Assembly: GCA_003155915.1 (NCBI GenBank)
Contig: PMFA01000005.1
Location: 124,686 to 188,685 of the forward strand
Origin: Acidimicrobiaceae bacterium
GTDB taxonomy: Bacteria > Actinomycetota > Acidimicrobiia > Acidimicrobiales > RAAP-2
Length of the DNA stretch: 64,000 nucleotides
Direction: 5' to 3'
Positions 3,246-49,441 of the stretch are shown here, in pieces. Positions within the stretch are counted from its first letter, which is position 1; each line of letters starts with the position of its first letter. Made by a program: the position numbers and the translations under genes. A model generated the notes under the pieces. The model saw only the letters and a program-made list of their open reading frames with translations. It did no database searches and was not told the origin of the DNA.

Positions 3246-3923
3246 ATGTCAAAGGGGGGGAGACTGACAACGGTATTTGGGCTCTTCTTGGTTGTCGTGG
3301 GTCTCGTCGTGTGGGCGGTGGCCGGTCTTCTGACTCCAGGCGTTCCAGGTGGCGTAGTCAACTTTACGAACACCCAAGGCGCCGGTCAACCAGTGCATTT
3401 GACGGTACAAACGGTCGGGTCGATTGGTTTCGGCGCCCACCCTACGTGGGTGTCGTACCTGGTCAAGGACCCGAAGACTGGTAAGTGGATTCACGACACC
3501 TCCTGGGAACTGCCCGCCCACACCGTGATTGATATGACGGTGTACCAGTACGACAGTGGCAGCCCGCTCCGCAACCAAGAGTGGGGCCAGGTTTTGGGCA
3601 CCATTGGCAACTCCGCGACACTGAACGGCAAGAGTTTCACGACCTATGACTCCTACACCGGCACCGGCATAGGCCACACCTTCGCGATTCCGACGCTCAA
3701 CATAAGTGTTCCGTTGGTGGGCGTGAGTGGCAACCCGTGCGCCGTGGCACCGTGTCACTTCAATTCGCCCCACAACATCGAGACGTTTAGCTTCAAGACG
3801 CCGGGCGCCGGCAGTTATAACTGGCAGTGCTTCGTGCCGTGTGCGCTGGGATACTTATTTGGAAACGGGGGCGCGATGTCGACGCAGAACTACATGGGCG
3901 GCGAACTGGAAGTGGTGAATTAA
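3246..3923 (+). CDS. Membrane-anchored cupredoxin-like protein, CuA-related
   Basis: A 225-aa protein with one N-terminal membrane segment (about 8-30) and an extracytoplasmic beta-rich domain. H144 lies in GHTFAIP, the usual position of the first cupredoxin histidine. C195-F-V-P-C199 and a GGAM ending at M211 resemble the CuA loop of oxidase subunit II, but the histidine between the second Cys and the Met is absent. A second Cys pair (C165, C170) precedes H171. It sits 2 nt upstream of subunit II and shares its operon, so it is probably an extra copper-binding or electron-transfer subunit. It could instead be a structural relic of subunit II. The start is supported by AAGGAG. Confidence 0.6.
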   Translation: MSKGGRLTTVFGLFLVVVGLVVWAVAGLLTPGVPGGVVNFTNTQGAGQPVHLTVQTVGSIGFGAHPTWVSYLVKDPKTGKWIHDTSWELPAHTVIDMTVYQYDSGSPLRNQEWGQVLGTIGNSATLNGKSFTTYDSYTGTGIGHTFAIPTLNISVPLVGVSGNPCAVAPCHFNSPHNIETFSFKTPGAGSYNWQCFVPCALGYLFGNGGAMSTQNYMGGELEVVN

Positions 3924-3925
3924 TC

Positions 3926-4915
3926 ATGTCACTAGAGAGTCCAAAAAATTACGGAGAGAACGACTTTCGCCACATTGTCACCATCTGGATCGTACTTTCG
4001 GTAGTTCTTGACGTTCTGTACTGGTTCCTTGTAGGACCGCACGTCCCTCCGGGCCGAATGACGTCGACGGCAAAGGACAATCAGCTCGACTTCAACGTGC
4101 TATTCGTCATTGCGTTGCCCGTCTTGATCGGCGTGTGGGAGTGGTTGGCCTTCGCCGGCCTCCGGTGGAATTCGAAGCGCAAGGACGCACCCGAATCGGT
4201 GGGCGGACCCAGCGCCGCCGGCAAAAGGAGCGCCGAATGGTCGTGGATCGTGATTACGTCCGTTGTGGTGTTGTTCCTCGCGGGTTTCGGAACCGTTGAG
4301 TTGTACGCGGGGAACGGTTCTGGCGGCGGCGAAGGCCCGAACCCGATCCAACAGCCCGCCGGTGCCGTCAGGGCCGAAACGGCCGCTATCCAGGGCACCG
4401 GTTCGTGGTCGCCCAACAGCAACGAGGTCCTTCCTGTTCAGGTGATCGCCCAGCAATGGAAGTTCACCTACCGTTACCCAACCTTCGGCGGTTTCGAGTC
4501 GCCATTCCTCATCCTTCCCAATGACACCCAGATCGCGTTCAACGTGACCTCGCTCGACGTCATCCACAGTTTCTGGGCCTACCAACTCGAAGTGAAGGCC
4601 GACGCGAACCCCTTAGAGAACAACGTCGCCTTCACCAAGACCGAACAGCTCGGTAGCTTTGAAGTTCGCTGCAGCGAACTGTGCGGGATCTGGCACGGAG
4701 CGATGTTCAACTCCGGCAAGGTCGTCTCGCAGTCGGCATTCATGAATTGGGCGACCTCCACGGAAACGAAGAACGCGCAGAACACGAAAGACTTGCCACC
4801 GTTCGCGTGGACCTACGTGCCCGACGCCAACGGTGCGGCGGGTGGCTATTACCCCGACGGCAATGTGACGCCCTACAGCACCGTCGAGATCTACGGATCG
4901 AAGCAGCCCTCATGA
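3926..4915 (+). CDS. ctaC: Cytochrome c oxidase subunit II
   Basis: A 329-aa protein. The ATG at 3926 is chosen because it follows the upstream stop by 2 nt. Hydrophobic segments lie near residues 17-35, 57-75 and 106-122, one more than the usual two. The C-terminal domain binds the binuclear CuA centre: H214 (VIHSFW), then C249-SEL-C253-GIW-H257-GA-M260, all ligands present. An aromatic patch (QQWKFTYRYP) matches the electron-entry region of the family. It takes electrons from a cytochrome c or cupredoxin and passes them to haem a in subunit I. The stop overlaps a 21-codon ORF by ATGA. Confidence 0.93.
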   Translation: MSLESPKNYGENDFRHIVTIWIVLSVVLDVLYWFLVGPHVPPGRMTSTAKDNQLDFNVLFVIALPVLIGVWEWLAFAGLRWNSKRKDAPESVGGPSAAGKRSAEWSWIVITSVVVLFLAGFGTVELYAGNGSGGGEGPNPIQQPAGAVRAETAAIQGTGSWSPNSNEVLPVQVIAQQWKFTYRYPTFGGFESPFLILPNDTQIAFNVTSLDVIHSFWAYQLEVKADANPLENNVAFTKTEQLGSFEVRCSELCGIWHGAMFNSGKVVSQSAFMNWATSTETKNAQNTKDLPPFAWTYVPDANGAAGGYYPDGNVTPYSTVEIYGSKQPS

Positions 4916-4977
4916 TGAAGCACCGTCGTAATTTCAGTCTGAAGTTCGTGAGCGAAGAAACGGAGATCGCGCGATGA
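4912..4977 (+). CDS. 21-aa linker ORF between oxidase subunits II and I
   Basis: An ORF of 21 codons plus stop (MMKHRR...EIAR). Its ATG overlaps the subunit II stop (ATGA at 4912-4915) and its TGA overlaps the subunit I ATG (ATGA at 4974-4977). Double overlap of this kind is what a translational-coupling relay would look like: ribosomes finishing subunit II would read through this peptide to reach subunit I. The peptide is basic at the N-terminus and has no membrane segment. No homology is recognised and it may be translated without being a functional protein. Confidence 0.4.
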   Translation: MMKHRRNFSLKFVSEETEIAR

Positions 4978-6935
4978 CCACAAGCGCTGCAGCACCTTCG
5001 GACGTCGAGAAGGCAACATCAGGGGCCGAAGATGCCCCCAGAACGACGGGTCATGGGTGGCTAAGCCAGCACGTCGGCACCGCGATCGTCGGTGGGTTCC
5101 TGGGCTATATCTTGGGCCACTGGCTCGGTAACTACATCGGCAGTGCCTACCCCTACATCGCGAACAGTGGGCAGAACTCACTCGCCGTCCTCTTGGCGCT
5201 GTTGTTCATGGTCGCGGGTTGGCTGCTCGGGATTGGCGCGTTGAACTATCCGCTCCTCAAGATAGTGGGCCGAGAGGCCAAACCGGAGGTGGAGCACGTC
5301 GGATGGTCGAAGTACTTCCGCTACAACCTGGACCACAAGGTCGTCGGCATCCAGTACGTCGTCGGCGTGCTCATGTTCTTCTTCACGGGTGGGCTTTTGG
5401 CAATGGCCATCCGTACCGAGCTCTTGAGCCCGACGGTCCACGTCTTTAGTGCCGATACCTACATCAAGATCGTGAGCGAGCACGGCACGATCATGATGAT
5501 GATGGCGTCGTCGATCGTCGTGGGTCCCCTGGGCAACTACTTCGTACCGCTGATGATCGGCGCTCGTCGCATGGCGTACCCGCGAATCGAGGCCTTCAGT
5601 CTGTGGACCTTCGTCGCGGGGTATTTCGTAATCTTCTCGGCCCTGTTCTTCGGGGGGTTCCCGACCGGCTGGACGGGCTACGCACCCCTCCAGACCCAAG
5701 CCGGTCCGGGCATGATCTCCTATCTCTTCGGCTTCGCCGTGATCAGCGTCGGCATGATCGCCGCCGGCTTCAATTTGGCCGCGACGATCATCAACTACCG
5801 CGCGCCGGGCATGACCTGGAGCCGGGTACCGATCTTCGTCTGGTCCATCATCGCCACCGCCGCACTGTTGACCTTGGCCTCACCCGTGTTGCTGGCGGCC
5901 GGCCTCTTCGGCCTGCTCGACAAGACGGCGCAGACGGCGTTCTACGTCACCGAGCACGGCGGGAGCTCGTACCTCTGGGAGAACCTGTTCTGGTTCTTCG
6001 GGCACCCCGAGGTCTACATCATGGCGCTCCCGGGCTTTGGCATCGTAGGCGAGATACTCCCGGTGTTCACCCGAAAGCCGCTCTTCGCGTTCCGAATCGC
6101 CGCGGCGGGAATGATTGGCGTGGCGTTGCTGTCCTTCTTCGTGTGGCAACACCACCTCTTCCAGAGTGGCATCAACCCGGACATGCGGCCGCTGTTCATG
6201 CTCACGACGGAACTCATCTCGATCCCGACCGGATTCATCTTCTTGGTGGGAATGGGCACGATGTATAAAGCCAAGATCAGATATGAAGTGCCGATGCTCT
6301 TCTGCATGGCCGTGTACTTCAACTTCCTGATCGGTGGTATCTCGGGCGTATTCCTTTCCGACGTGCCCGTGAACGTGACGGTGCACGGCGGCTTCTTCGT
6401 ACTCTCGCACTTCCATTACACGATCATGGGTGGACTCATCTTCGCGTTCTTCGCCGGGCTGTACTTCTGGCTGCCCAAGATGACCGGGCGCACGATGAAC
6501 AAGAAATTGGGGCTGTGGCACTTCTGGACGATGTTCGTCTTCTTCAACCTGACGTTCTTCCCGATGTTCATCATCGGCTTGTTGGGCCAACCGCGTCGTG
6601 TCTTCACCTACGCGAGGGACCTGCAGACCCTGAACGACTTCTCCTCGATCGCGGCTTTCTGTCTCGGGGCCTCCTTCCTCATCTTCGTGGCGAACCTGAT
6701 GTGGTCCCAGTTCATCGCACCGCAAAAGTCCCCGGCCAATCCGTGGGACTCACTCGGTCTCGAATGGCAGACCGCCACACCGATTCCGCCCTACAACTTC
6801 GAGCGGATTCCGGTCATCATGACCGACCCGTATCACTACAGCGAAGTCGGCGCGCCCGCGCTCGTCGACTCGGGAGACGGTCCACCGGTGCACGCCAGTA
6901 GTTTCGTCGCCTCCAGTACTGACCCGGATCAATAG
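4974..6935 (+). CDS. ctaD: Cytochrome c oxidase subunit I
   Basis: A 653-aa haem-copper oxidase catalytic subunit with an N-terminal extension carrying about two extra membrane segments (residues 35-95). Metal ligands are present: H170 for low-spin haem, H344 and Y348 in GHPEVY, H393-H394 in WQHHLF for CuB, and H479 and H481 in HFHYT for the haems. The HPEVY Glu is an A1-type mark. However, the D-channel Asp of the usual GAPDMAFPR block is Arg (GARRMAYPR, R199), and the K-channel Lys of PTGVK is Ile (PTGFI, I422). It reduces oxygen to water and pumps protons in the family. Translation is probably coupled to the preceding short ORF. Confidence 0.93.
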   Translation: MTTSAAAPSDVEKATSGAEDAPRTTGHGWLSQHVGTAIVGGFLGYILGHWLGNYIGSAYPYIANSGQNSLAVLLALLFMVAGWLLGIGALNYPLLKIVGREAKPEVEHVGWSKYFRYNLDHKVVGIQYVVGVLMFFFTGGLLAMAIRTELLSPTVHVFSADTYIKIVSEHGTIMMMMASSIVVGPLGNYFVPLMIGARRMAYPRIEAFSLWTFVAGYFVIFSALFFGGFPTGWTGYAPLQTQAGPGMISYLFGFAVISVGMIAAGFNLAATIINYRAPGMTWSRVPIFVWSIIATAALLTLASPVLLAAGLFGLLDKTAQTAFYVTEHGGSSYLWENLFWFFGHPEVYIMALPGFGIVGEILPVFTRKPLFAFRIAAAGMIGVALLSFFVWQHHLFQSGINPDMRPLFMLTTELISIPTGFIFLVGMGTMYKAKIRYEVPMLFCMAVYFNFLIGGISGVFLSDVPVNVTVHGGFFVLSHFHYTIMGGLIFAFFAGLYFWLPKMTGRTMNKKLGLWHFWTMFVFFNLTFFPMFIIGLLGQPRRVFTYARDLQTLNDFSSIAAFCLGASFLIFVANLMWSQFIAPQKSPANPWDSLGLEWQTATPIPPYNFERIPVIMTDPYHYSEVGAPALVDSGDGPPVHASSFVASSTDPDQ

Positions 6936-6953
6936 CGAGTAGAGAGTAACGAC

Positions 6954-7610
6954 ATGACGGACATGATCAAGAGCTCACAAAAGATGAGTGACACGCCCGA
7001 AGAGCGCGAGTTCGAGCTTCGTGCGCACATCGGTGCGATATGGAGCGGGGGCCGACTTTTCATCGGCATCTACACCTTCTTGCTCGCGGCGCTCGCCTTC
7101 AGCTACTTCTATCTTCGCTCGAGCAACAACGGGCTCCTGTGGCGACCGGATCACGTGACGGCGCCCACCGCGTACGGCTGGACCATTTACACCTTGGTCC
7201 TTCTCGCCGCGCTCATGGCCATCTTCGGTCAGGCCCGACTGCGCAAGGGAAGTGTGTCGGAGTGGCAGGTGGCCGTCTGGGTCGGGGTGGCGGCGTCGCT
7301 CCTCGCATTGTTCCTGCAGGTCTGGGAGTTCACCGCGGTGCCCTTCTACCCCGGCTCGAGTGGCTACGCCTCGACGTTCATTGGCTATTCGGTCATCAAT
7401 ATCTTGACCATCTTCATCGTGTTGTACTGGTTGGAGACGACCGTCGCACGTTCGCTTCGAATGAACAAGGAAATTGGCGGAGTCGCGCCTCAGCTTTCGA
7501 TGCACCCTTCGGCGCAGTCGTTTCGCGCGAACGTGGCGTCAATGACGTATTTCTTGGGATTCGTGGCGCTCGCCAGCACGCTGTTGTTCGCGATGTTTTA
7601 CCTGCTGTAG
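6954..7610 (+). CDS. ctaE: Cytochrome c oxidase subunit III
   Basis: A 218-aa protein with five hydrophobic segments and the layout of bacterial subunit III (RLFIGIYTFLLAALAFSYFYLR, then QVWEFTAVPFYP, then a C-terminal helix pair). It lies 18 nt after subunit I. The family stabilises subunit I and influences proton uptake; it binds no redox metal. An ATG two codons further in gives an alternative start. Confidence 0.88.
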   Translation: MTDMIKSSQKMSDTPEEREFELRAHIGAIWSGGRLFIGIYTFLLAALAFSYFYLRSSNNGLLWRPDHVTAPTAYGWTIYTLVLLAALMAIFGQARLRKGSVSEWQVAVWVGVAASLLALFLQVWEFTAVPFYPGSSGYASTFIGYSVINILTIFIVLYWLETTVARSLRMNKEIGGVAPQLSMHPSAQSFRANVASMTYFLGFVALASTLLFAMFYLL

Positions 7611-7680
7611 TGACGAAACGTAGGAGCCATAAGGTGATCAACAAGGTGCGGATTGACGTTCGAGAGTTGGGGTGGTCGTG

Positions 7681-7794
7681 ATGCCAGGCGTAGACAGTTA
7701 CATCGGCCCTCAGGTCGAGACGATGGTGATTCTCTTGGGCACGCTGTTCGTCGTTGTCATCTGGGGATTCTTCCAGCGTCATCATTCGGAGTGA
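7681..7794 (+). CDS. 37-aa single-span membrane peptide, possible oxidase subunit IV
   Basis: An ORF of 37 codons (MPGVDSYIGPQVE, then one hydrophobic helix, ending QRHHSE). It lies between subunit III and the CtaG gene, whose GTG start overlaps its stop as GTGA at 7791-7794. Size, single helix and placement resemble accessory small subunits such as CcoQ or CydX, though no sequence similarity is claimed. It was too short for ordinary ORF calling. The overlap with a recognised gene start supports real translation. Confidence 0.6.
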   Translation: MPGVDSYIGPQVETMVILLGTLFVVVIWGFFQRHHSE

Positions 7795-8612
7795 GCGCCG
7801 AGCCGACTCCCCGGCAGTTCTCACCTCACCGCCTCCTCTTCCACGACCTCCTCACGTGTAGCGCCCTCGTCCTGTGGGTGATCGTATTGACGCCACCGGT
7901 ACTCACGCTGACGAGTGAGTACGAGTTCGTCCAGGCCACGCAGTTCTGTCTGTTCGCCGTCGTGATTCCCTCACTGCTCATCGTCGGAAGTCCGTGGCGA
8001 TGGTTCAACTTGGCGTCGCTCGAAACGCCGCTCGTGGACGCCGACGGCCAGCAGATCGCAGCGCCACCGGACCGTCCACTCGATCGATGGGTGCAGCGCC
8101 GCTCGTCGCAAAAGGGCTACCACCGCGTGGTCACGCTCCTGCTCATCTTCGTGGGACAGACGATCCTGTGGCGATCGGCGCCGGTCGTCGACGCGCTGAT
8201 CCGACACCCGTGGCTCTCGATTGTGGAGTCGTTCGCGCTCGTGGTCGGCGGCGCGTTCTTGTGGCTCGAATTAGTCGAGTCGGCCCCCTTTCGACCGACG
8301 ACGGCGCGCCCGTACCGCATTGGTGTCTCGGCCGTCGCGATGTGGACGGTGTGGGTGATCGCCTATCTCATGGCCATGGCGCCCAACACGTGGTACACGG
8401 GTTTCCGGCACGTATCGGGACGGCTGTTCTCCCTCGCGATCGACCAACAGGTGACGACGGCGCTGATGTGGTTCATCACGGCCGGGGCGTTCCTGCCGCT
8501 CATCTTCTCGAACCTCTACCGATGGCTGCAATCCGAGGAGGACCCCGACGAAGAGCTCTACCATCTCGTTCGACGTGAGCGCTCGCGAGGCTTCTTCGGC
8601 ACCAACCCGTAG
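7791..8612 (+). CDS. ctaG: CtaG-type cytochrome c oxidase assembly factor
   Basis: A 273-aa membrane protein. GTG at 7791 is preferred over upstream in-frame starts because it couples to the 37-aa ORF by a 4-nt overlap and gives a sensible N-terminus (SAEPTPRQFSPH). It has about seven membrane segments and the CtaG_Cox (caa3_CtaG, PF09678) layout, including a DQQ...TAGAFLPLIFSNLYRW end block. In Bacillus, CtaG is needed for caa3 oxidase assembly. It ends the oxidase operon and faces the PsiE-like gene tail to tail. Confidence 0.75.
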   Translation: MSAEPTPRQFSPHRLLFHDLLTCSALVLWVIVLTPPVLTLTSEYEFVQATQFCLFAVVIPSLLIVGSPWRWFNLASLETPLVDADGQQIAAPPDRPLDRWVQRRSSQKGYHRVVTLLLIFVGQTILWRSAPVVDALIRHPWLSIVESFALVVGGAFLWLELVESAPFRPTTARPYRIGVSAVAMWTVWVIAYLMAMAPNTWYTGFRHVSGRLFSLAIDQQVTTALMWFITAGAFLPLIFSNLYRWLQSEEDPDEELYHLVRRERSRGFFGTNP

Positions 8613-13982: not shown

Positions 13983-14165
13983 ATGTCAAGTTTCGGATTG
14001 TTAGCCGCCATATGGCCGTTAACCACGCTTGGTCACTACGTGCACTGGCACATTATCCAGATCAGCGTGGCCAACTTGACGGTCATCATCTTGATGGTCG
14101 TGACGTTCATCGTTGCACTATTCGCACCGTTTCCAGGTCGACGACGCCGTAAGGAGAAGCCATGA
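13983..14165 (+). CDS. 60-aa membrane protein ahead of cytochrome b
   Basis: The ATG at 13983 follows GGGGAGGGG, which fixes the start. The 60-aa product has two hydrophobic stretches, HYVHWHIIQIS between them, and a basic tail (PGRRRRKEKP). Three histidines lie at the membrane edge. Its stop overlaps the start of the cytochrome b gene by 4 nt, so it is probably a small subunit of the same complex. No family is recognised. Confidence 0.6.
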   Translation: MSSFGLLAAIWPLTTLGHYVHWHIIQISVANLTVIILMVVTFIVALFAPFPGRRRRKEKP

Positions 14166-14791
14166 GCACCACGGAGATCGATCGACAGTGGACGACCCGT
14201 CTTCGACGACGCGTCGCCGGCAAACTCCCCCCAGAAAAGCTGCTGCCCGATACGCAGCCCACGTACGTCGCTTCGTGGATCTACGTCTTTGGCGTCACGA
14301 CGATGGCCGCCCTCGGCGTCGTCATCGTCTCGGGCTGTCTCCTGGCACTACGCGGACCGCAGTGGTGGCACACTTCCTCAGTCGGCCACTTCGTTAATTC
14401 GCTGCACCTCTGGAGCGTCGAGATCTTCTTCTTCGCCATGGTCATACATCTCTGGGGCAAGTACTTCATGGCCGCGTGGCGCGGAGGCCGTGCGCTCACG
14501 TGGATGACCGGCGTTTTTACATTTCTCGTTTCCATCGCCACGGCGTTCACCGGTTACGTGAGCCAGTCGAACTTCGACTCACAATGGATCTCGACCCAGG
14601 CGAAGGACGGCATCAACTCCACCGGCGCCGGTGCGTTTTGGAATGTCTTGAATACGGGTCAGATGCTCATGTGGCACATCGTCTTACTGCCCCTCGCGGC
14701 GGTCGTCTTGACGGTGTTTCACGTCTTACTCGTTCGCATCAAGGGCGTTGTACCACCCTTTGAAAAGGACGGCGCGGAGGTGGCACAATGA
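14162..14791 (+). CDS. Cytochrome b (b6-type, N-terminal half)
   Basis: A 209-aa protein with four membrane helices. The haem ligands are visible as paired histidines: H-x13-H in the second helix (HLWSVEIFFFAMVIH) and H-x14-H in the fourth (HIVLLPLAAVVLTVFH). The 14-residue spacing of the second pair is typical of b6 rather than mitochondrial cytochrome b. It carries two b haems and would move electrons from quinol across the membrane. The partner half is the next gene, overlapping by 4 nt. No Rieske or cytochrome c1/f gene is adjacent. Confidence 0.85.
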   Translation: MSTTEIDRQWTTRLRRRVAGKLPPEKLLPDTQPTYVASWIYVFGVTTMAALGVVIVSGCLLALRGPQWWHTSSVGHFVNSLHLWSVEIFFFAMVIHLWGKYFMAAWRGGRALTWMTGVFTFLVSIATAFTGYVSQSNFDSQWISTQAKDGINSTGAGAFWNVLNTGQMLMWHIVLLPLAAVVLTVFHVLLVRIKGVVPPFEKDGAEVAQ

Positions 14792-15735
14792 AGTCCAAGG
14801 CCTTCCGTCCCGACGTGGACGCTCCCGAGTGGAAGGGCGGCTACAGCCCCTACGACATCATCAAAGAAGGCATCATCGCGGTCGTGATCGTTTCGATTCT
14901 GACGGTGTTGCTCGCCATCGCCTTCGGTTCGCCCGACGATCCCTCAATCACCGTCAAAGCCTGGTCAACCAATGACCCGATGGACTTTGCCGCGACGGCG
15001 CTCAGCGAGCTGAACAACACCTCGGGCACGGCGCAGTACGGCGCTCCGTACAACAAGGCATCGACTGGTCAGCAACTGGGACCACTCACCCTGGCCAAAT
15101 GGGTCGGCGCGCGAATCCCCATCAACACGGTGAACGACTTCGTCATCAATCCACTCAAGTCGCTGCCCGGGCAACCCGCGTTGTCCTCGGACTTGTCGCA
15201 GTGGTCGAGTGCGTCAACGTCGACGCGCGCCAATTGGGTCAATAACTACACGCACGCGGCGAACAAGATGAAGATCGTGAGCGGCCAACTGGTCGTCAAC
15301 ACGACCAGCGCCGGACCGGTGCCGCTCATGATGTCGGACCTCTTGCAAATGGCCCGCACGGGTGCACTCGACCAGGCCCTCGTCACGCAGAACGGTTTCT
15401 ACACCACGGACTACACGCTGCCGTTGTTGTTCTTGGCCGACGGAACCTACATGGCCAACCTTGCGCAAAAGCAGCACCTCACGGGCGACCAGTGGGGCAT
15501 GATGAACGAGACGGGCAACTACCCAGGCCAAGCCTGGCTGTGGCTCTATACCTTTTGGTACCAAGTCTCGCCCATGAATTCGAGCGGCAACGGTGACATC
15601 CTCGTCTGGGGCATCATGATGGTGCTCTCCGCGGGCCTCTTGTTGATGCCGTTCATCCCGGGGCTGCGATCCATTCCTCGAAAGACCCGCGTCTATCGAC
15701 TGATCTGGCGCGAGCACTACCGCGACGTCGAGTAA
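14788..15735 (+). CDS. Cytochrome b C-terminal/subunit-IV-like membrane protein with a large insertion
   Basis: A 315-aa protein: one N-terminal helix (about 24-46), some 200 mostly polar residues, then a helix pair near 248-295 ending in a basic tail. Position and overlap with cytochrome b6 point to a subunit IV-like partner, and FGSPDDPSI after the first helix recalls that subunit. But the quinol-site PEWY motif of subunit IV is not present, and the soluble insert has no counterpart in PetD. It is probably a diverged partner in a quinol-oxidising complex; an unrelated subunit is possible. Confidence 0.55.
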   Translation: MKSKAFRPDVDAPEWKGGYSPYDIIKEGIIAVVIVSILTVLLAIAFGSPDDPSITVKAWSTNDPMDFAATALSELNNTSGTAQYGAPYNKASTGQQLGPLTLAKWVGARIPINTVNDFVINPLKSLPGQPALSSDLSQWSSASTSTRANWVNNYTHAANKMKIVSGQLVVNTTSAGPVPLMMSDLLQMARTGALDQALVTQNGFYTTDYTLPLLFLADGTYMANLAQKQHLTGDQWGMMNETGNYPGQAWLWLYTFWYQVSPMNSSGNGDILVWGIMMVLSAGLLLMPFIPGLRSIPRKTRVYRLIWREHYRDVE

Positions 15736-15794: not shown

Positions 15795-16970
15795 TTAGAC
15801 GGGCACGCCCGACAGCGCCAACAGTAGGCCCACGATGCCGGCCGCGAGCAGACATCCGACGACGCTGCGCCGAAAGACCCAGAGCAAGAGGATCGCTGCA
15901 ACCAACACCGGAATCTGCCACAGATGCGTAAATGAGCGCGCCAACGGAATCGCGGAACCGGCGATTGCGCCAATGACGGCCGGTCCGGCGCCGCGAAAGA
16001 ACGACTGGACCGTCGTATTGGTTCGAACCCGGTCGAAATGTGGAGCGCCGGCCAGTACGAAGAGGAACGACGGGGTGAACACGATCAACGCCGCGAGCAG
16101 TCCCCCGCCAATTCCATCGGCGACGTAGCCCACCGCGGCGACCGTCTGGACGACCGGGCCCGGCGTCAGTTGTCCCAGGGCCACGGCGCTTAAGAACTGT
16201 GTGCCGCTCATCCAGTGATAGGTGCTCACGACGTCGTGTTGCATGAGTGGAACGATGACGAATCCCCCGCCGTAGGACAGGGCGCCCACTTTGAGGGCGA
16301 CCCACGCGAGTGCACCGAGGCCGCCGGCGACGCCGACGTGACCAATGACCGCAGGCGACATCGCTCGGGCCAGTCCCGACGAACTCTTCGACTCCCATCC
16401 CTCCACGGCGATTTCGAGCAACCCACACGCCACGAGCACCAGCACGAGATACGAGCCCGCGACGGCGGGCGCGACGGCGCCGATCACGACATAGCTCATC
16501 CACCGTGCGCGAGCCACCCGTCGAGTGCCCGCTCGCTCTCGGCTCGCCGGCATGAGGCTCCGTGCGGCATTCAGCGCGATTGCCGGGACGACCGCGCCGG
16601 CACCAGCCGCTGCCCCAAGGGCCCACGAGGGCGCGTGACGATCAAGAAAGAGGACCGAGAGGGCGAGGATCAGTACCAGTCCGGGCACGATGAAGCAGAC
16701 CCCACCGACGAGTGCGCCCGCCGTTCTGCGCAGTCGCCACGCACAATAAATCGCGAGCTGCGTCGACGCCGGACCCGGAAGGAGGTTGGCTGCGGCGATG
16801 CCATCTTCGAAATCTCTTTCCTCGATCCACTGCCGTTGCTCGACGCACAGTCGTCGAAGCAAAGTGATGTGGGTCGGTGGACCCCCGAATCCGATGCAGC
16901 CGATTCGTGTCCACTCCCGCGCGATGGTGACCAGCGAGACTCTCTGCACTGATGCTCGCTCATCGATCAT
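15795..16970 (-). CDS. chrA: ChrA-family chromate transporter
   Basis: A 391-aa protein with two homologous halves of the chromate transporter family: FGGPPTHITLL near the start of the first and SYGGGFVIVPLMQ starting the second, with NLLPGPASTQLAIYCAWR and QLTPGPVVQTVAAVGY as the matching Pro-Gly-Pro blocks. About ten to twelve helices are predicted. ChrA members export chromate by a proton-linked mechanism; many homologues have other anions as substrate, so chromate is only the default. It converges on the cytochrome b locus. A strong start is not obvious. Confidence 0.85.
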   Translation of the reverse strand: MIDERASVQRVSLVTIAREWTRIGCIGFGGPPTHITLLRRLCVEQRQWIEERDFEDGIAAANLLPGPASTQLAIYCAWRLRRTAGALVGGVCFIVPGLVLILALSVLFLDRHAPSWALGAAAGAGAVVPAIALNAARSLMPASRERAGTRRVARARWMSYVVIGAVAPAVAGSYLVLVLVACGLLEIAVEGWESKSSSGLARAMSPAVIGHVGVAGGLGALAWVALKVGALSYGGGFVIVPLMQHDVVSTYHWMSGTQFLSAVALGQLTPGPVVQTVAAVGYVADGIGGGLLAALIVFTPSFLFVLAGAPHFDRVRTNTTVQSFFRGAGPAVIGAIAGSAIPLARSFTHLWQIPVLVAAILLLWVFRRSVVGCLLAAGIVGLLLALSGVPV

Positions 16971-48850: not shown

Positions 48851-49441
48851 CTAGCCGACCGAAACGAGTTCCGGAACTGGTGTCACAACGGCCACTACTT
48901 CGACCGGTACGACGTGGTGACGACGCTGCTTGTATCCAGCGATGATTCCGTCGACGCCAATCCACGTCGACGTGCGCCACGTGGCGAGCACGATGATCGC
49001 GCACAGTGCGTAGAAGCCGCAGACACTGGCCGTACCCGACATGATGTACGTGAAGAGCAGCGCCAAGCTGGCGAGCGCGGCGATACGGGTGAGGAAACCG
49101 AAGGCGAGTCCGATACCGATCGCGAGTTCGCTAAAGGCGACCACGACGGCAATCCAACTGGCGTTGGGAACCACGAAGCTGTGCATGAAACTGCCCCACC
49201 AGCTGTACGCGGCGACGCCGTGACTGGCGAATCCGGCTACACCGGCTCCGTTGTTGTGGAGAAACGCTGGATTCTCGGCGCCCCACACCTTGGACACGCC
49301 GGCTTGAATCCACATGATCCCGACCCACACGCGCACTGCCAACCACGCGACAGATGCGACCTTGGATTCGCGCAGCCACGCCACGATTCCGGGAGTGGTG
49401 CGCTCGGCGGGATCACCGAAAATAGCGATGACTCTGTTCAT
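48851..49441 (-). CDS. DoxX/DoxD-family membrane protein
   Basis: A 196-aa protein with four helices and the DoxX blocks WVGIMWIQAGVSKV and VAFSELAIGIGLAFGFLTRIAAL. The family includes the small subunit of archaeal thiosulfate:quinone oxidoreductase, but most bacterial members have unknown function. AAAGAGGTC precedes the ATG. Monocistronic with a strong terminator. Confidence 0.8.
   Translation of the reverse strand: MNRVIAIFGDPAERTTPGIVAWLRESKVASVAWLAVRVWVGIMWIQAGVSKVWGAENPAFLHNNGAGVAGFASHGVAAYSWWGSFMHSFVVPNASWIAVVVAFSELAIGIGLAFGFLTRIAALASLALLFTYIMSGTASVCGFYALCAIIVLATWRTSTWIGVDGIIAGYKQRRHHVVPVEVVAVVTPVPELVSVG

Follow-up and report, generated by a model that had tools for sequence, protein, structure and literature searches.

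A split cytochrome b6-type complex with a rewritten Qo motif and no adjacent Rieske gene in Acidimicrobiaceae and other actinobacteria

In excerpts of a 2022 review, all cytochrome bc complexes are stated to include a Rieske protein, and the Qo motif to be present in all of them (PMC9162462). The described systems closest to the locus reported here are PetB/PetD of the b6f complex, actinobacterial QcrB, ExtP of Geobacter and, as a functional idea, superoxide oxidase of the b561 type. ExtP is part of a cluster with the Rieske protein ExtO, as given in an excerpt of its description (PMC5877670). An extract on superoxide oxidase presents it as a minimal 4-helix bundle enzyme (PMC11869295).

The window analysed here is a stretch of 64,000 nucleotides from an Acidimicrobiaceae genome (GCA_003155915.1, contig PMFA01000005.1). 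A preliminary description had placed a split cytochrome b complex at positions 13983-15735, and this location proved exact. It holds three overlapping ORFs, hereafter the trio: a small ORF, a cytochrome b6 gene (b6) and the gene of a partner protein. Both junctions are ATGA start/stop overlaps of four bases. PADLOC and Rfam searches gave nothing. The features recognized are as follows.

3827..6935, + strand: cytochrome oxidase subunits II and I, given as context (PF00116 and PF00115)
13983..14165, + strand: small single-helix subunit, 60 aa, with an ATG start behind GAGGGG
14162..14791, + strand: cytochrome b6-like protein, 209 aa, with two haem-b ligand pairs (Pfam match, invariant ligands)
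14405..14407, + strand: His82 codon, haem ligand, first of helix B, invariant
14447..14449, + strand: His96 codon, haem ligand, second of helix B, invariant
14675..14677, + strand: His172 codon, haem ligand, first of helix D, invariant
14720..14722, + strand: His187 codon, haem ligand, second of helix D, invariant
14788..15735, + strand: partner, 315 aa, with a long insert separating its subunit-IV-like helices E and F, and no helix G
14926..15528, + strand: predicted soluble insert domain of the outer side, ~200 aa, mostly helical, no conserved Cys (model pLDDT 81, Cys counts)
15508..15510, + strand: Glu241 codon, invariant Glu upstream of the Qo-equivalent motif (motif in 116/116 distinct partners)
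15529..15540, + strand: QAWL, at the position equivalent to PEWY/PDWY (alignment with QcrB and relatives)

The b6 protein matched Pfam PF13631 with 49 bits (cut-off 27) and PF00033 with 28.7 bits (cut-off 27.2). Both haem-ligand pairs ascribed to it earlier, H82/H96 and H172/H187, were invariant in 18/18 aligned relatives. In a second scan, the two His patterns fitted 110 of 111 distinct b6 sequences, and the sole misfit (L198) misses just a proline required by the pattern. The protein has the four-helix cytochrome b core with two bis-His haem sites that defines Rieske/cytochrome b complexes. Judged by its sequence, it is a genuine cytochrome b6, and from the ligands a predicted transmembrane haem wire is as good as certain.

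The trio shares with PetB/PetD the b6-length core, the helix-D ligand spacing of 15 and the split gene order, the window having one ORF for b6 and another for the subunit-IV-like partner. The nearest solved relatives of its b6 in the PDB were also cytochrome b6 chains. Unlike b6f, it has no Rieske protein, cytochrome f, PEWY or helix G, and its ef loop carries a long insert. The Cys next to helix A of b6 in b6f, which we take to be the haem c ligand, is replaced by Val in the window b6, and was found only in two distant loci (L041, 8570-10198, and L042; ~30% identity). These two have no small subunit, their partner reads GPWY, and their genomes carry a separate Rieske/b6/multihaem operon.

The best NCBIfam model for the window b6 was that of ExtP (NF040969), whose curated cut-off of 290 is far above the 49.4 bits reached. 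With actinobacterial QcrB the trio has in common the two-haem core and, according to structure modelling, apparently helices A-F. The QcrB of the same genome differs: it is a single chain of 511 aa, has PDWY and shares its operon with the Rieske protein QcrA and a double haem-c protein. In a tree where close relatives stood for the window b6, the trio cytochromes b formed one clade of 51 rows (support 100/98), apart from the Rieske-associated cytochromes b, including QcrB.

The partner was harder to place. Hydropathy showed two membrane segments, at residues 28-46 and 271-289, unlike the genome's own QcrB, which has more segments beyond the helix-F position. No Pfam or NCBIfam family scored above cut-off for the partner. 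A match to PF22422 (glycoside hydrolase-like) inside the insert, 21.7 bits against a cut-off of 27, was taken as chance. Searches of the PDB by phmmer and hmmsearch gave just kinase-like noise and did not find PetD. The cytochrome b C-terminal domain PF00032 was matched neither in the window partner nor in the natural b6/partner fusion L109, nor was it reported for the own QcrB, so that its absence from the partner says little; the same library found it in L180.

Comparison of the partner-alone profile with QcrB failed (probability 0.8%), whereas the fused profile gave a match extending over helix E (probability 97%). In L109, PF13631 spans residues 102-262 (profile 2-164 of 169), crossing the boundary between b6 and partner, and it runs through helix E in the own QcrB too. 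An AlphaFold model of the L109 fusion (535 aa, Acidithrix) had a pLDDT of 71.5. In Foldseek, ranks 1-48 were all cytochrome b chains, with E-values from 1.3e-4. VIA-align placed model residues 45-523 onto residues 23-327 of bovine cytochrome b, past the insert into helix F. Its Z of 9 to 11.5 across the listed cytochrome b chains is below 13, and at such values the mere arrangement of helical bundles can produce a match. Because the partner-alone profile comparison failed, the evidence for homology of helix F comes from the structure model and from a single motif alignment.

The structure search and the match over helix E make a cytochrome b C-terminal domain with a remodelled quinol site the most likely identity of the partner. 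We take it as a strongly diverged subunit IV, cut down to helices E and F. The preliminary description had named clear PetD homology with a shifted quinol site as a finding against novelty. Such homology is seen in part, in the structure and over helix E, but not when the profile of the partner is compared alone.

The reported absence of PEWY from the partner holds across the family. The P-E/D-W-Y Qo motif of Rieske/cytochrome b complexes is replaced by QAWL or a variant of it in 116 distinct partners: QAWL in 85, QSWL in 11, QPWL in 9, AWWL in 2, GPWY in 2, and seven singletons, the rarer variants (11/116) being tallied by eye. GPWY belongs to L041/L042, where the motif alignment is uncertain. 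Glu at the second position occurs in one partner alone (QEWL in L150), while the tryptophan of the motif is retained. In the window partner, the invariant Glu241 stands seven residues before QAWL.

The soluble insert after the first partner helix, put at about 190 residues in the preliminary description, was likewise recovered. Helix E and the Qo-equivalent motif are 200 residues apart, compared with 19 in QcrB, and the Qo-side loop is ~180 residues longer than that of the own QcrB. We considered a redox cofactor in the insert and rejected it: no Cys is conserved, 11/18 partners have zero Cys, and His230 is present in 16/18 only. Since most rows have no Cys, the insert is, on its sequence, not a redox domain of known type. 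A fold search with the insert model alone matched no solved fold in the PDB (none at E < 1, best Z 2.0), which is no proof of a new fold.

The small subunit is a one-helix protein with a positive C-terminus, and its orientation is probably outside-to-inside. It had been introduced as a 60-aa His-rich membrane protein. The length and the helix stand, and "His-rich" does not: there are 3 His in 60 residues, found in 83, 74 and 49 of the 107 distinct homologues. Metal binding through these His was rejected, as they are not conserved. The invariant residues are Asn31 and Ala45, each in 107/107.

A pattern scan of species genomes confirmed at least 591 relatives among 596 stretches. Most of the best 80 of these were actinobacterial bins, those of Acidimicrobiaceae among them, and labels pointing to peat or permafrost (palsa, bog, fen) were frequent; Acidithrix ferrooxidans was also included. 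Records labelled Acidobacteria among the relatives are probably misnamed bins. In whole-genome samples, the trio was present in 17/198 genomes of the class, 11/396 of the phylum, 21/197 of a second class and 1/36 of a third class. In total, 40 different genomes from several actinobacterial classes carry it. With the distant L041 partner as query, the phylum sample gave the same 11/396 genomes and no new branch.

The trio was kept across the loci with a partner gene (102, of which 97 distinct) and the 40 sampled genomes. The b6 gene lies directly upstream of the partner gene in 102/102 loci, and the small ORF is present in 98/102, the misses being two loci at contig ends and the distant pair. 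Compared with L044, L045 and L046, b6 and partner of the window had dN/dS values of ~0.01-0.18, the mark of purifying selection. Because the trio is conserved and under purifying selection, chance ORFs are excluded.

In 10/102 loci, b6 and partner are fused in one ORF (L043 included), and in L040 the small protein and b6 are fused in frame. All three parts are in one ORF in L043, L144 and L148. The three-part fusions group in one clade of the b6 tree, together with L019 from the same genome as L040. L013 and L017 fall with the Acidithrix group in another clade. Since fused forms occur in separate clades, fusion appears to have arisen about three times, counting L150, a number for which the bootstrap is not settled. 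As far as gene structure tells, the natural fusions, including those of all three parts, show that the trio works as one complex.

In the window, the trio has neither a Rieske gene nor a c-type cytochrome gene next to it, as had been noted. For relatives, c-type cytochromes were judged indirectly: no neighbour is conserved beyond the window's lineage. Among 115 distinct loci, whose flanks often end at contig ends, a Rieske motif was found near the trio in three (L122, L181 and L182), at ~1 to 5 kb, and in the same operon in 0/115. A Rieske gene conserved beside the trio in relatives, the second finding named as evidence against novelty, is thus seen in these three loci only.

The genome of the window encodes four Rieske domains. 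The first belongs to an ordinary qcrCAB operon, where consecutive genes match COX3, a double haem-c protein, QcrA and a cytochrome b, the last being QcrB with PDWY. The second is an oxygenase of the vanillate demethylase type, and the third a 117-aa frame beside a SUF gene. The fourth, a membrane-anchored protein of 407 aa on contig 28 (L025:7231-8454), is a DoxD-Rieske fusion, with a DoxD/DoxX membrane domain and a C-terminal QcrA/PetC-like Rieske domain. The proposed search for a Rieske gene elsewhere in the genome thus led to qcrCAB and to this second candidate. As the genome also has the ordinary qcrCAB operon, the trio is its second cytochrome b, in an operon of its own without Rieske. 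A stand-alone DoxX/DoxD-like protein is encoded in the window at 48851-49441.

A long QcrA match was found in 32/40 trio-bearing genomes, suggesting that the trio works beside a normal bcc complex. It is also what would be expected of a paralogue that borrows QcrA and QcrC from that complex. We hold such borrowing to be highly improbable: the docking loop is rebuilt, the trio cytochromes b form a separate deep clade, and 8 trio-bearing genomes have no long QcrA match, some of them with other bc-type Rieske genes.

A further possibility is that the trio provides the cytochrome b half of a complex whose Rieske protein is encoded elsewhere, exported and anchored by DoxD/DoxX or a lipid. The insert would then be a docking platform, and some bifurcation would be kept. 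The Rieske proteins near the trio in L122, L181 and L182 are DoxD-Rieske fusions from two lineages, and the fusion is present in the window's own genome. Its Rieske domain scored best against QcrA/PetC models, yet below their cut-offs. In the class sample of 198 genomes, DoxD-Rieske was present in 15 (read from coordinates), the trio in 17 and both in 10. These 10 are all from the window's family, where they make up all trio-bearing genomes (with DoxD-Rieske in two pieces in G055 and G067) and where 12/13 genomes have DoxD-Rieske. In the second class, 12/21 trio-bearing genomes have DoxD-Rieske and most others an exported Rieske lipoprotein, these counts covering trio-bearing genomes only.

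The overall Fisher p of 2e-9 for this co-occurrence in the class sample is a kinship effect, because the association vanishes outside the window's family (DoxD-Rieske in 0/7 trio-bearing compared with 3/178 other genomes). In addition, 7/17 trio-bearing genomes of the class sample, including the single-contig G014, have no full-length DoxD-Rieske. The non-QcrA Rieske of G014 looks cytosolic. With the two genes as neighbours in just 3/115 loci, the PEWY glutamate position lost and the docking loop rebuilt, we regard a Rieske protein supplied from elsewhere as unlikely, yet as a serious alternative. A stand-alone small Rieske protein as universal partner was rejected, being not universal among trio-bearing genomes.

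In the window, coxBA, two CtaG genes and SCO1 lie within 13 kb upstream. A CtaA-like gene is near the trio in 57/115 loci and a CtaB-like gene in 55/115. From this, the trio could be imagined as an accessory or assembly factor that handles electrons or haem during maturation of the haem-copper oxidase. The CtaA/CtaB neighbourhood is, however, not retained in the second class. COX1 is missing from 6 of the 8 trio-bearing genomes in which no long QcrA match was found, and 4 of these 6 are 95-100% complete (G038, G062, G278 and G284). Three of the latter four have a bd oxidase. Because the trio occurs in four nearly complete genomes free of COX1, it is independent of the haem-copper oxidase, and we give an assembly role little chance.

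The oxidase genes at 3246-8612 form a second haem-copper oxidase cluster, with COX2 carrying a CuA-type motif, COX1, CtaG, a possibly cupredoxin-like protein of 225 aa and a COX3-like protein of 218 aa without a Pfam match. The second COX1 of the genome is on contig 28. At 1156-2892 a 578-aa protein has many hydrophobic segments and a SCO1 domain at its C-terminus. A chromate transporter gene (15795-16970) is convergent with the trio, and a related gene is near the trio in 6/97 loci. In a background of nine other loci and the far part of the window, the neighbour markers gave no match except one COX1 and one trio, a set too small as a control.

In 13/115 loci, at least two of the following are encoded nearby: a NarL/LuxR response regulator, a universal stress protein, a GAF histidine kinase, an Acg-family FMN oxidoreductase and a pyridoxamine-oxidase-like protein. 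In L181, L182, L122, L109, L110 and L117, the trio is found among response regulators, GAF kinase, Acg-family oxidoreductases and universal stress proteins, with a different subset per locus. By NCBIfam, the neighbouring oxidoreductases belonged to the Acg family (above cut-off), and the best model for the neighbouring regulator was MadR (below cut-off). This gene set is reminiscent of the mycobacterial DosR dormancy regulon. The 13/115 loci are the basis on which we suggest a link to low oxygen.

The stress genes near some lineages would also fit a scavenger of superoxide or quinone, in which electrons from a radical or reductant on the outer side pass to quinone with no protein partner. Such an enzyme is described as a minimal 4-helix bundle in the extract cited above (PMC11869295), and as a two-haem carrier without partner proteins it offers a functional analogy to the trio, in which all parts can be fused in one chain and no other gene is conserved. 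The trio b6 gave no match to the b561 Pfam family at E-values up to 1, and the conserved insert has no counterpart in superoxide oxidase as that extract describes it. We consider a scavenger role improbable.

We tentatively favour a reading of the trio as a remodelled cytochrome b6/subunit IV complex that carries electrons across the membrane and does not bifurcate them, and to this reading we give a little under an even chance. Its core would be a b6-type four-helix, two-haem unit, joined by helices E and F of the partner and by the one-helix accessory subunit. The ef loop, in ordinary complexes the site of PEWY and of the Rieske docking face, would have its Qo motif rewritten from PEWY to QAWL, and the cofactor-free helical insert domain probably caps the outer side. 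The architecture of cytochromes b and the strong conservation at both ends suggest an inner-face quinone site and, in the outer pocket, a place for electron exchange. The reactant on the inner side, close to haem bH, would be menaquinol or menaquinone. By way of bH and bL, electrons would be exchanged in either direction with an acceptor or a quinone bound in the remodelled outer pocket. Glu241 may handle protons in place of the PEWY glutamate. No standard Q-cycle is expected, because the PEWY acid and a resident Rieske protein are missing. The carrier would work alongside the normal bcc complex and, at least in part of the family, be used in low oxygen or redox stress. Of the new quinol-linked complex proposed earlier, a distinct cytochrome b complex with no PEWY and no adjacent Rieske gene is borne out, and its link to quinol is what we infer.

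The fold family is already known. A search of the open-licence literature found no description of this complex, and its combination of features is without description in the literature searched. It is quite possible, though less likely than not, that the trio represents a complex of the bc lineage without Rieske or bifurcation. Its Qo glutamate would have shifted upstream to Glu241, its outer site would be closed off by a new domain, and the whole enzyme could be a single polypeptide, serving as a transmembrane quinone-linked carrier in low-oxygen or dormant actinobacteria. If true, a conserved cytochrome b family that lacks Rieske and Qo motif, is at times fused in one chain and accompanies an intact bcc complex would be nature's own test of what the cytochrome b core can achieve without bifurcation. 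The trio, recurring in many poorly known soil and acid-loving bacteria, would mark an unrecognised part of respiration in actinobacteria of peat, permafrost and acid mines, including the cultured Acidithrix ferrooxidans.
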